Source of the DNA: a virus
IMG/VR virus record: IMGVR_UViG_3300009177_000055
Coordinates: 1-46,915 of that record
DNA: 46,915 nucleotides
Reading direction: 5' to 3' (one strand)
Part shown: one piece after another, positions 33,781-36,899 of the stretch
Layout: each line of letters begins with the position of its first letter
Numbering within the stretch: position 1 is the first letter of the stretch
The notes under the pieces: model-generated
What the model was told of the DNA's origin: nothing
Seen by the model: the letters and a program-made list of their open reading frames with translations, nothing else
Databases searched by the model: none
Made by a program: the position numbers and the translations under genes

Positions 33781-34464
33781 ATGGCAGAATCCCCCCACCC
33801 CTGGGACCGGCAGGAGGGCGAGCCGGTCCTGTGGTACGACCGGTTTGACCGATTTCGGGCAATGGGGCCGACGCGAAGTCTGCGGGGCCTGTACGCCGAC
33901 GAATCAGGGAAGGGCAAGGAGGGGCAGGATGGGACACGGGAAACCGTCCCGATCAACGCCCCAACCTCCTGGCGTGAAGCTGCCGTGGAGTGGCGATGGC
34001 GGGAACGGGCGGAAGCCTTCGACCTCGCCGAGATCGAGAAGCGTCGGGCCGGTCAGGAAAAGGCGATGGAGCAACTTCATCGCGAAGGTCTTGGCGTGGC
34101 GAATTCCGCACTGCTCCTGGGTGGTCTGCGGATTCGCAACCTCCAGAAGACGCCCGATGTTCTGTCGCCTCGCGATGCGATCGCGATGGTGGATCTGAGC
34201 ATGAAGCTCCGCATGTTCGCCAGGCAGGACCCCTTGCGGGAACTCCTGGCAATGCTTCGCGATCTGGGCACAACCGAAGACGACCCAACCCCTTGCGAGA
34301 TCGCCGATGTGGGCACAGACGGTGAAACCCCTGACGCCAGGCTCCCTCAAGAGCTTCCGGGATGCACGGGAACGAATCCTGAACCGCCCGCAGCAGAGCC
34401 CATTCCTCCGCAAGCTGAAGCAGGACCCCTCGGCCATCCTCTCCTTGGGGGGCTGGACCCCTGA
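33781..34464 (+). CDS. terminase small subunit-like protein
   Basis: The 227-residue protein starts AESPHPWDRQEGEPVLWYDR and has MGPTRSLRGLYADES and WREAAVEWRWRERAEAFD in the first 90 residues, the pattern of small terminase-like proteins in planctomycete and other phages. A helical middle follows (to about 160), and the last 55 residues are Pro/Ala-rich. It lies directly before the terminase ATPase and overlaps its start by 158 bp. It would recognise viral DNA for packaging. No good ribosome-binding site is visible. Confidence 0.7.
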   Translation: MAESPHPWDRQEGEPVLWYDRFDRFRAMGPTRSLRGLYADESGKGKEGQDGTRETVPINAPTSWREAAVEWRWRERAEAFDLAEIEKRRAGQEKAMEQLHREGLGVANSALLLGGLRIRNLQKTPDVLSPRDAIAMVDLSMKLRMFARQDPLRELLAMLRDLGTTEDDPTPCEIADVGTDGETPDARLPQELPGCTGTNPEPPAAEPIPPQAEAGPLGHPLLGGLDP

Positions 34465-35146
34465 TCCCTGGCAGGCAGACGTACTGAGCAGCGAATCCCC
34501 CCAGATCATGCTTCTCGGTTCGCGGCAGTGCGGCAAGTCGTTCATCGCCAGTGCCCTCGCCCTGCGAACCGCACTGGCCCAGCCGGATTCGCTGGTACTG
34601 ATCCTCAGTCCCACGCTGCGGCAATCGGGGCTGTTCTTTCGCAAGAGTTTCCTCCGCTTCTGGAAAGACCTGGGCTATCCCCTCAAGGGCGAGCGTCCCA
34701 ACCGTCTGGAGGTGGAATTCTCCAACGGTTCGCACGTCGTTGCCCTGCCCGATTCCGAGGAAGGCATTCGCGGTTTCTCCGGCGTCAAACTGCTGGTGAT
34801 CGACGAAGCAAGCCGGGTGAGCGATGAACTCTACGACGCCGTCACGCCCATGCTTGCCACCAGCGGGGGCAAACTCGTTGCCCTGTCAACGCCCTGGGCC
34901 AAGCAGGGATGGTTCTTCAAGGCGTGGACCAACGAGAAAAGAGACTGGAAACAGGTAGAAATTACCGCAGCGATGTGTCCGCGGATCTCGAAGAAGTTCC
35001 TGGAGAAGGAACGCCGCAAGAAGGGCGATCGCGTCTACCGGATGGAATACGAGTGCAAGTTCGGCGAACTCTCTGCGGGCTACTTCAACCCCGAAGACAT
35101 CGCCGCCGCCCTGGAACCTGACGGGGAGATCATTCGTCTTGGCTGA
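34307..35146 (+). CDS. terL: terminase large subunit, ATPase part
   Basis: The 279-residue protein has the packaging ATPase motifs: Walker A GSRQCGKS (71-78), Walker B LLVIDEA (162-168) and the coupling motif STP (194-196). It ends shortly after the ATPase domain, and the nuclease domain is in a separate, overlapping gene. The ATG chosen is the first in the frame and lacks a good ribosome-binding site; the conserved part begins near DPWQADVL (53-60). It drives DNA into the prohead. The full terminase would need the next gene product. Confidence 0.88.
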   Translation: MWAQTVKPLTPGSLKSFRDARERILNRPQQSPFLRKLKQDPSAILSLGGWTPDPWQADVLSSESPQIMLLGSRQCGKSFIASALALRTALAQPDSLVLILSPTLRQSGLFFRKSFLRFWKDLGYPLKGERPNRLEVEFSNGSHVVALPDSEEGIRGFSGVKLLVIDEASRVSDELYDAVTPMLATSGGKLVALSTPWAKQGWFFKAWTNEKRDWKQVEITAAMCPRISKKFLEKERRKKGDRVYRMEYECKFGELSAGYFNPEDIAAALEPDGEIIRLG

Positions 35147-36899
35147 TTACGCCACCCACGTCTGGAACCCTCCTGCCGACACTGCTGCCTGTCCTGTCTG
35201 CTGGGCCGACCTTCCACCCGCCCGTGACGACAAGCGAACGTGCAGCCTCTGCGGCAAGGTCGTGAGTGTGACCCCGAAGCCACCCGCACCGATCCCGCCG
35301 GAATTCATCGCCGGGCTTGACCTCGGCAAGGTCAGCGACTTCACCGCTCTGGTTATTCCCAAGCGGGTGACCGACCCCACCACGGGTAACGTGACCTACA
35401 AAGTCCCGGTCATCCAGCGTTTCCAGCTCGGCACGCCCTACGTTGCGATGGTGGACAAGGTCAACGACTGGCTGACGAAGCCTCCCCTGGATCAGGCCAT
35501 TCTTGTCATCGACGCCACAGGAGTCGGGCAAGCCGTCGTCGAGATGTTCCGGGCCAAGCCCAAACTCGCCAATCGCATCGTTCCCGTGACGATCACTGCC
35601 GGCCGAGCGGTAACCTGGCATCATGGAAGCTGGCACGTCGCAAAGGTGCAACTCGCCAGTACCGTGCAGGCCCTCCTGAGCGGCCGGCAGATCAGCATTC
35701 CCATCCCATCCGAGGAGGCGATCCGCCGCAATCCCAGCCTGCTGCAAGAGCAGGAGATTGCCCAGGCTCTCACGGAGGAACTGGAGAACTTCACCGTGAA
35801 GGTCACCACGGCCGGCAATGAGCAGCTTGAGGCATGGCGGGAGACTGACCACGACGACCTTTGTCTCTCCGCTGACTCTCTTGTCTTGACGAGTCGAGGG
35901 TGGATTCCCATTCCCAGCGTGACAACAACGGACAAAGTGCTAACTCGGCAAGGTTGGAAAAGGGTTCTCTGGTCCGGGATGACTTCCTCACTTTCCGACT
36001 CAATTATTGTTGATTGCGGAGACGATTACTCTTTAAGATGCACTCCTCGCCACCCCATTTTGACCGCAACTCGCGGTTGGGTGAACGCCGAGGATTTAGC
36101 CATCGGAGAAGGAGTAGTTGTATGTCCGTCGTGGAAACGTGCGAATGGGACGGCAGGACGTGGAGACGATATCCGGATTCCCCCCACCGAAGCTATCGCG
36201 TCTACTTTCAGCGGCACGAAAGGTGGAAGGAGCCGCCCATCTGGCTTCACCAGGAGATATGGAAGTCGGTCAACGGGGACATTCCTGAAGGGTTTCACGT
36301 CCACCACATTGACGAGAACCCTCTCAACAATGCAATCGAAAACCTGGAGTGCATTCCAGCCGCAGAGCATTACGCTCGCCATCGAGAGGCCAAGCGACTT
36401 TATGGCCAATCAGAGGAGCAGCTTGCCCATCTCGCTCGGATACGACCCGGCGGCCTTGTCGCCCTTGCTGCCTGGAAGATATCCCCAGAGGGAAAGGCTG
36501 CAATGTCAGAGTTTGCAAAGCGAAGCTGGAATGATCGGCCAATGCTCGTCTTTGTCTGTAAATTCTGCAAGACAGAATTTCAGTCGAAGGATACCCGATC
36601 TATCTACTGTTCGCACCGATGCATGCAGCGAGATCATCCAGCCCAGACTATTTACCCGTGCGTCTGCGGAACGTGCGGAACCGAGTTCATGGCAAAGAAG
36701 CGCAAGCAGCGGTTTTGCAACCACCGCTGTGCGGCGTTTGCTCGCGAATCAGCAAAGCGAGCCCGTCTACAATCTGCTGGTTGAGGGTTGCCCGGAATTC
36801 TTCGCGAACGGCATTCTCGTTCACAACTGCCTCGCCCTCGCCCTCGCCCTCTGGTGGGCGGAAGGCCGCAGCACCGCCCGGGTCGAAATGCTGAACTAG
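35139..36899 (+). CDS. terminase nuclease gene interrupted by an intein
   Basis: The frame opens at TTG 35139, overlapping the ATPase stop by 8 bp, and encodes 586 residues. Residues 1-50 hold a zinc ribbon (CPVC 18-21, CSLC 35-38). The RNase H-like nuclease follows with Asp61 in GLDLG, Asp125 in VIDATG and the DHDDL motif at 237-241. There the sequence breaks into an intein (residues 242-563) and resumes as CLALALALWW, the normal continuation of the terminase end. The spliced protein would be 264 residues. It would cut concatemeric DNA during packaging. A split ATPase and nuclease is unusual. Confidence 0.85.
   Translation: MADYATHVWNPPADTAACPVCWADLPPARDDKRTCSLCGKVVSVTPKPPAPIPPEFIAGLDLGKVSDFTALVIPKRVTDPTTGNVTYKVPVIQRFQLGTPYVAMVDKVNDWLTKPPLDQAILVIDATGVGQAVVEMFRAKPKLANRIVPVTITAGRAVTWHHGSWHVAKVQLASTVQALLSGRQISIPIPSEEAIRRNPSLLQEQEIAQALTEELENFTVKVTTAGNEQLEAWRETDHDDLCLSADSLVLTSRGWIPIPSVTTTDKVLTRQGWKRVLWSGMTSSLSDSIIVDCGDDYSLRCTPRHPILTATRGWVNAEDLAIGEGVVVCPSWKRANGTAGRGDDIRIPPTEAIASTFSGTKGGRSRPSGFTRRYGSRSTGTFLKGFTSTTLTRTLSTMQSKTWSAFQPQSITLAIERPSDFMANQRSSLPISLGYDPAALSPLLPGRYPQRERLQCQSLQSEAGMIGQCSSLSVNSARQNFSRRIPDLSTVRTDACSEIIQPRLFTRASAERAEPSSWQRSASSGFATTAVRRLLANQQSEPVYNLLVEGCPEFFANGILVHNCLALALALWWAEGRSTARVEMLN
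35862..36827 (+). other. intein (322 codons) with no in-frame endonuclease
   Basis: The N-terminal splice region starts with Cys242 (CLSADSLVLTSRGWIPI), and has block B as TPRHPILT with the TxxH histidine. The C-terminal region reads VYNLLVEGCPEFFANGILVHN, ending in His-Asn before a Cys as first extein residue. Between them about 210 residues in this frame are Ser/Arg-rich and unlike any folded domain; on the DNA this part encodes an HNH endonuclease in another frame. Splicing at exactly HDDL/CLALALAL restores the conserved terminase motif. The splicing residues Cys1, TxxH, HN and Cys+1 all seem intact. Confidence 0.9.
36122..36784 (+). CDS. HNH homing-type endonuclease nested out of frame in the intein
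   Basis: The 220-residue protein starts at ATG 36122 with AAGGAG 7 bp upstream. It has an HNH_3-type core: the first His in WLHQEIW (41-47) and HHIDENPLNNAIENLE (61-76). Two zinc fingers follow: C146xxC149 with C163xxxC167, and C182xxC185 with C199xxxC203. It likely cuts the intein-free terminase gene to spread the element. Its last seven codons overlap block F of the intein. Both frames are open for the full 663 bp, but only this one looks like a folded protein in the middle. Confidence 0.88.
   Translation: MSVVETCEWDGRTWRRYPDSPHRSYRVYFQRHERWKEPPIWLHQEIWKSVNGDIPEGFHVHHIDENPLNNAIENLECIPAAEHYARHREAKRLYGQSEEQLAHLARIRPGGLVALAAWKISPEGKAAMSEFAKRSWNDRPMLVFVCKFCKTEFQSKDTRSIYCSHRCMQRDHPAQTIYPCVCGTCGTEFMAKKRKQRFCNHRCAAFARESAKRARLQSAG

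Follow-up and report, generated by a model that had tools for sequence, protein, structure and literature searches.

The window, that is, the whole stretch of DNA analysed here, is an entire virus record of 46,915 bases and a single metagenomic record. On its plus strand, the nuclease half of the terminase large subunit is encoded by an open reading frame that contains an intein, and a complete HNH gene lies in another reading frame within that intein. The features of the locus are the following:

34307..35146, + strand: terminase large subunit, ATPase half, a separate upstream gene (Terminase_6N, E 2.4e-16; PHROG terminase, E 7e-54)
35139..36899, + strand: terminase nuclease gene with intein, a 586 aa ORF and translation, stop codon at 36897-36899
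35139-35861, + strand: N-extein, part of the terminase nuclease ORF
35862..36827, + strand: intein of 322 aa, Cys1 to His-Asn, followed by Cys+1
35862..36146, + strand: N-terminal splicing domain, intein residues 1-95 (AlphaFold2 pLDDT about 95-98 over most of it)
36042..36053, + strand: block B, TPRH, read directly; its His64 is invariant in 58 aligned inteins
36109..36114, + strand: AAGGAG, Shine-Dalgarno sequence of the HNH gene, 7 nt before the ATG
36122..36784, + strand: nested HNH homing endonuclease gene (220 aa, frame 2; HNH_3, E 1.6e-15), in the -1 frame relative to the intein
36147..36707, + strand: intein-frame middle, residues 96-282, low-complexity and predicted to be disordered; this stretch is overprinted by the HNH gene
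36242..36370, + strand: HNH_3 catalytic domain, HNH residues 41-83, with every family-invariant residue kept
36557..36622, + strand: first Cys4 (zinc-finger-like) motif of the HNH protein (C146/C149/C163/C167); zinc binding is inferred
36708..36827, + strand: C-terminal splicing domain, blocks F/G, residues 283-322 (pLDDT about 79-98; TIGR01443 above cut-off)
36828-36896, + strand: C-extein, part of the terminase nuclease ORF

The splicing residues of the window intein are C1, H64, H321-N322, and C+1, and C1, H64, and N322 were invariant in the 58 aligned relatives; all family-invariant residues (C1, G31, H64, and N322) are kept. Blocks F/G read VYNLLVEGCPEFFANGILVHN and end at 36827. The Pfam model Intein_splicing matched the 586 aa ORF with an E value of 3.4e-7 and the intein alone with 7.6e-8, slightly under the Pfam bit cut-off, and the match of the window ORF to the intein C-terminal model TIGR01443 exceeded its cut-off. 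At the same site, the uninterrupted homologues L003 and L004 have TDHDDLVLSMAL and TDHDDLVMSLAI, from which the empty site was read as HDDLVLSMAL and HDDLVMSLAI, respectively. With its splicing residues, its predicted Hint fold, and intein-free homologues at the site, the element meets the criteria for an intein, protein splicing itself being inferred. The nuclease gene also matched phrog_27743, a family of unknown function (E 1e-33, residues 55-245). The terminase large subunit is divided between two overlapping genes, ATPase (34307-35146) and nuclease (35139-36899), a split common to L003 and L004, and the start of the nuclease gene (35139-35280) encodes CxxC...CxxC pairs with a weak match to a double zinc ribbon (E 0.015).

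The HNH_3 match of the nested gene passed the cut-off, and PHROG HNH families matched it with E values down to 1e-26. The protein keeps H61, H62, N69, N70, and H83 together with the Cys motif, in which C146, C149, and C163 were invariant and C167 nearly so across 58 aligned HNH proteins. With an HNH motif and a DNA-binding region, it meets the sequence criteria for an HNH_3 homing endonuclease; cleavage of an intein-free allele is inferred. The HNH frame is already open from position 36014, 108 nt before the ATG, and its stop codon (36782-36784) falls within block F, which starts at 36765, so that the end of the HNH gene overlaps the first part of the C-terminal splicing domain. Identity to any relative found was about 41% at most, and for this reason no substitution test was possible at the window locus.

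AlphaFold2 models of both window products, built on 58-row alignments, predicted an intein with a Hint fold and a disordered middle, and a well-folded HNH protein. In the intein frame, the pLDDT was mostly about 95-98 for residues 1-95, about 79-98 for residues 283-322, and about 45 for residues 96-282. The intein model matched solved mini-inteins (1mi8, TMt 0.81), and Foldseek returned DnaB, RecA, and gp41-1 inteins. The HNH model had a mean pLDDT of 92, and its best structural match was the homing endonuclease I-HmuI, although this match was weak (E 0.13).

A sequence-only reading of this DNA had placed an intein with a TPRH block B and Cys+1 at 35862-36827 in the terminase nuclease gene, and both direct reading and profiles uphold this. 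It had also described a complete HNH protein of 220 residues (36122-36784) in the -1 frame with its own AAGGAG and ATG, the last codons of which overlap block F, and both statements held. Its proposal to search the two frames separately against profiles was followed: the intein frame matched intein models, and frame 2 matched HNH_3.

Relatives were collected by HNH-seeded searches of IMG/VR, the GTDB genome collection, and phage records, and were classed frame by frame without assuming an intein. After removal of duplicates, there were 145 distinct loci in which an HNH gene lies inside a longer ORF containing a contiguous intein of the terminase large subunit (TerL). In all 145, the longer ORF is +1 relative to the HNH gene, that is, the HNH gene is -1 relative to the intein; frame-by-frame classing of the HNH-seeded matches gave no nested locus with any other relative frame (0/145), and the HNH-seeded scans gave no in-frame HNH-intein fusion among them (0/145). 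Intein motifs were recognized by pattern at both the N and C ends in 139 loci and at one of them in the remaining six. Profiles matched as well, with Intein_splicing in 57/58 inteins and HNH_3 in 58/58 HNH proteins. The host ORF in the relatives is TerL, and insertions occupy several closely spaced positions in the nuclease motif around H-x-x-D-A-L-R-Y. The anatomy of the locus and its conservation are shown by these comparisons. Since the loci were gathered by HNH similarity, they carry no information on the share of all TerL inteins that are built in this way.

The loci come from viruses, named phages (TJE1, Highwayman, and LS06-2018-MD07), and bacterial and archaeal genome contigs. Among the genome contigs are those of Thermoplasmatales and Methanomethylophilaceae archaea, Nitrospiraceae, Chlamydiota, and Patescibacteria, the host of contigs from metagenome-assembled genomes being taken as labelled in the records. 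The arrangement is not specific to planctomycete phages, among which the sequence-only reading had proposed to look for relatives, and that point is amended. In the public records of Highwayman, TJE1, and LS06-2018-MD07 (L006, L007, and L011), only the terminase is annotated and the HNH gene is missed. A second intein style, with a block F of the form VYCL.VP... and often ending GG(L/V)(I/M/V)VHN, was seen in L097, L105, L113, L114, and L116; it also bears a nested HNH gene in the same frame.

Both frames are open over the 663 bp of the HNH gene, as had been claimed, but on the window alone this is not compelling. Synonymous-codon shuffling of this 663-nt stretch gave a probability of 0.05 for the absence of stops, and of the 663-nt stretches inside the window's presumed genes, 5.2% have that relative frame open. 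A chance double-open ORF could therefore not be rejected on the window alone (about 5%). It was rejected on the family, because the double-open frame is conserved across 145 loci, which places it far beyond chance. Across 79 nested HNH genes, no stop was observed in the intein frame compared to 155.6 expected from synonymous shuffling within each gene, and the third frame was near expectation (1165 stops vs 1246 expected). The controls, namely the free-standing homologues BP10, EauM-23, and L053 and the split Vibrio case, had 12, 11, 14, and 3 intein-frame stops vs 12.9, 7.7, 12.4, and 2.7 expected. The 79 loci are related, so these counts do not amount to 79 independent trials.

Substitutions in 20 pairs of relatives showed selection specific to each frame, which the sequence-only reading had suggested looking for as synonymous change in each frame across homologues. 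Mismatch rates at the first, second, and third intein codon positions were.20/.15/.45 in the N domain,.15/.36/.20 in the overlap, and.24/.14/.50 in the C domain; the most variable position is thus the third intein position in the splicing domains and the second intein position, which is the third HNH position, in the overlap. The dN/dS of the HNH frame was 0.06-0.48 where calculable, and that of the overlapped intein frame was at least 0.84 in 19/20 pairs. From the codon-position shift and the dN/dS values, it follows that, in relatives, protein-level constraint acts on the HNH product and on both splicing halves. The overlapped middle of the intein appears to be constrained mainly to stay open, with the reservation that the dN/dS estimates are approximate and ignore the coupling between overlapping frames. 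The description of the in-frame middle as a splicing linker was adjusted accordingly: rather than a designed linker, it is probably disordered sequence that has been overprinted and is merely kept free of stops.

A Shine-Dalgarno sequence of at least 5 nt precedes the HNH start in 38/75 relatives, compared to 6.8% of shuffles, and in a wider count one is present in 65 of the 145 loci. In 47 of these 65 SD-bearing loci, the HNH start has an in-frame stop at most 30 nt upstream, so that the HNH frame opens too late to leave much room for entry by frameshifting. Enrichment of Shine-Dalgarno sequences and nearby upstream stops together favour internal initiation, though about half of the relatives lack a Shine-Dalgarno sequence of at least 5 nt at the HNH start.

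Evidence on mobility came from Highwayman, whose terminase intein has 327 aa (981 nt). The TerL protein of Acba_21 is 98% identical to that of Highwayman and has no insert. Their exteins are identical in length (1302 nt) and differ by 15 mismatches, seven of which lie at +1 to +12; the insertion is precise to the base, and Leu+1 of Acba_21 is replaced in Highwayman by Cys+1, as splicing requires. The element is absent from dozens of phages with nearly the terminase of Highwayman (TerL about 98% identical). Presence and absence at one precise site, with a changed flank, are shown. The flank pattern is what a co-conversion tract would leave, an inference from the pattern in one case. BP10 was considered as the intein-free partner of Highwayman and rejected for the distance of its terminase (27%); Acba_21 and Arbor, both nearly identical, took its place.

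Other states of the site were also found. Five relatives (L152, L112, L119, L211, and L009, which is Vibrio phage 1.238.A) have split inteins around the HNH gene, with terminase-IntN and IntC ORFs of the same intein lineage, and IntC is always in the relative frame of the nested form. The HNH ORF overlaps both intein halves in L152, L119, and Vibrio 1.238, and IntN ends just before the HNH ORF in L112 and L211. In L021 and L053-L055, the terminase is uninterrupted (as read) and the HNH gene lies directly downstream. Free-standing HNH homologues adjoin terminase genes in L021, L053-L055, L012, L140, and L008, and such a gene is possibly the source, or a target-linked form, of the nested gene. 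The TerL of Microcystis phage Mic1 (L215, 1-2859) carries two inteins, one at the ATPase site and one at the nuclease site. The HNH tree, with its long branches, was too poorly resolved to speak for or against a single origin of the nested form; it had nine label changes, at least two of them forced. One conceivable path leads from an HNH gene near or in the terminase, by out-of-frame entry into a mini-intein, to either a frame kept open or the fracture of the intein into split halves; the order and number of events are unresolved.

Taken together, we consider it likely (probability roughly 0.87) that the window's terminase nuclease carries a mobile intein, and that an overprinted HNH gene inside it is translated on its own to give the homing endonuclease. 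This supports the earlier interpretation of a continuous intein with an independently encoded, out-of-frame endonuclease. There are no splicing, translation, or cleavage data, and splicing, separate translation, cleavage, and homing are all inferred. In the proposed mechanism, the HNH gene is not an in-frame domain; it overprints, in the -1 frame, the stretch from block B to block F. Translation of the long frame would yield a terminase precursor, from which the Hint domain (residues 1-95 and 283-322) would splice itself to restore the terminase nuclease, the overprinted middle being passed over as a disordered loop. Ribosomes starting at the internal Shine-Dalgarno sequence and ATG would make the HNH protein from the same mRNA. 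This protein would cut terminase genes that lack the intein, either at the insertion site or close to it, and repair would copy the whole element in. In this model, selection acts on the HNH protein in its own frame, and on the overlapped intein frame mainly against stop codons.

Of the alternatives, that of a degenerate relic, in which the intein and the endonuclease are both inactive in this virus, survives best but remains unlikely. In its favour, the intein falls narrowly short of the Pfam cut-off in profile score, and the HNH protein is divergent. Against it, all family-invariant residues are kept in both products and both frames are intact; moreover, the terminase nuclease would be broken without splicing.

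A second possibility is a role of the HNH protein in DNA packaging instead of homing, its position here then reflecting joint action with the terminase. Packaging is known to involve HNH proteins as partners (Kala et al., 2014, cited in PMC12613952), and free-standing homologues adjoin terminase genes, as noted above. However, the element is missing from dozens of phages with nearly Highwayman's terminase, the HNH gene is nested in an intein at the usual slot of intein endonucleases, and the flank is changed at the Highwayman insertion. We regard this explanation as very unlikely.

Equally improbable is -1 ribosomal frameshifting, instead of internal initiation, as the source of the HNH protein, which would then be made as an intein-N/HNH fusion. 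In favour of this, no HNH gene departs from the -1 frame, and in the window 108 nt of that frame are already open ahead of the ATG. In contrast, an in-frame stop lies within 30 nt before the start of HNH homology in 58/145 loci, and within 12 nt of the HNH start in 28 of the 65 SD-bearing loci. Shine-Dalgarno sequences are enriched at that start, and the constant frame can also be explained as the frame that is poor in stops for HNH genes.

Two compensating sequencing or assembly errors could make an ordinary in-frame HNH intein look like a nested gene, and the sequence-only reading had named base errors near 36100-36130 and 36780 as what would refute it. Intein homing endonucleases are normally in frame, and the window is a single metagenomic record. 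Nevertheless, the same offset was found in 145 distinct loci, including the named phages Highwayman, TJE1, and LS06-2018-MD07, and identical sequences came from independent metagenomes (L023/L024/L026, L045/L051, and L083/L089). The HNH gene also has its own start and Shine-Dalgarno sequence, and the intein frame is selectively free of stops. This recurrence refutes the error explanation for the class, and for the window that explanation is very unlikely. Finally, a group I or II intron was rejected, as no Rfam match was found in the window region (L005) or in six relatives.

The finding extends well beyond the window, with function inferred throughout. The class escaped notice because only the long terminase ORF is given in annotations. 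With a dual-coding gene pair of this length, the constraints on both frames can be measured, and the empty, mini, nested, split, and endonuclease-next-door states of the site make the entry of the endonuclease and the origin of split inteins directly testable. The class also offers many compact inteins that would tolerate long disordered insertions, provided that they splice as inferred. A bolder reading is that overprinting is a widespread and old alternative to in-frame fusion for mobile inteins: a terminase-targeting HNH gene invaded mini-inteins out of frame, in many lineages of phages of bacteria, and probably also of archaea, dual coding has held it in place, and natural split inteins arose where the overprinted frame was lost, which would make the class the missing link from contiguous inteins to fractured genes. 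Taken as one joint claim, we would put this no higher than an even chance, and no lower.

In published descriptions, endonuclease-bearing inteins are either fusions or split inteins whose halves flank a gene. Mycobacteriophage TerL inteins share the terminase large subunit as host gene, but their seven sites are in the ATPase domain (Kelley et al., 2016, PMC5050341), and the present inteins lie in the nuclease domain. The nuclease-site mini-intein of Mic1 has a similar insertion site (DHL|C...CDALRY) and the same style of blocks F/G; unlike the window intein, it has no endonuclease that could be seen in any frame. Canonical inteins, such as the large one at the Mic1 ATPase site, which we take to be of the in-frame LAGLIDADG type (by reading, without a profile test), share the Hint splicing domain and the position of the endonuclease between blocks B and F. 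Their endonuclease is in the same polypeptide, an arrangement present in 0/145 nested loci; the window element is not a canonical endonuclease-bearing intein, its HNH gene being in the -1 frame, like those of all 145 loci.

The PolB of MIJ3 has a split intein with a free-standing HNH gene (PMC6892783), and in fractured genes with split inteins, the two halves are reportedly separated by a free-standing homing endonuclease gene (Dassa et al., 2009). These resemble the present class in having the endonuclease as a gene of its own at the intein's endonuclease slot. Their intein is divided between two genes, whereas here one continuous ORF overlaps the whole endonuclease gene; the single ORF at 35139-36899 does not meet the identity of a fractured-gene split intein.

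Of published cases, the ShiLan domain comes closest: it is an HNH insertion, out of frame, in phage methylases, and it has neither a splicing element nor a ribosome binding site (PMC11855218). In both, a phage gene with an open frame of its own conceals an HNH gene in a second frame, and the distribution is disjunct in a way that suggests homing. In ShiLan, however, the insertion is filled by the HNH gene (its GTG lies 18 bp in and its TAA within the last four bases) and the host gene is a methylase, whereas here a canonical Hint intein surrounds the HNH gene and Shine-Dalgarno sequences are common. A ShiLan-type insertion was rejected for the window, since a splicing domain is present. The claim that no such case had been described held in part: an out-of-frame HNH gene in a phage gene has this precedent without an intein, and the literature searched gave no account of a contiguous intein in which an endonuclease is nested out of frame. 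Coverage was incomplete, excluding Gorbalenya 1998, Dassa 2009, and a study by the ShiLan authors on actinobacteriophage inteins and a 'non-canonical architecture' (Gosselin et al., 2025, bioRxiv 10.1101/2025.01.02.630785), and priority is left open. With that reservation, the parts are familiar, and what is new is the overprinted arrangement as a conserved class, a third design besides the fusion and the split intein with a gene between its halves.
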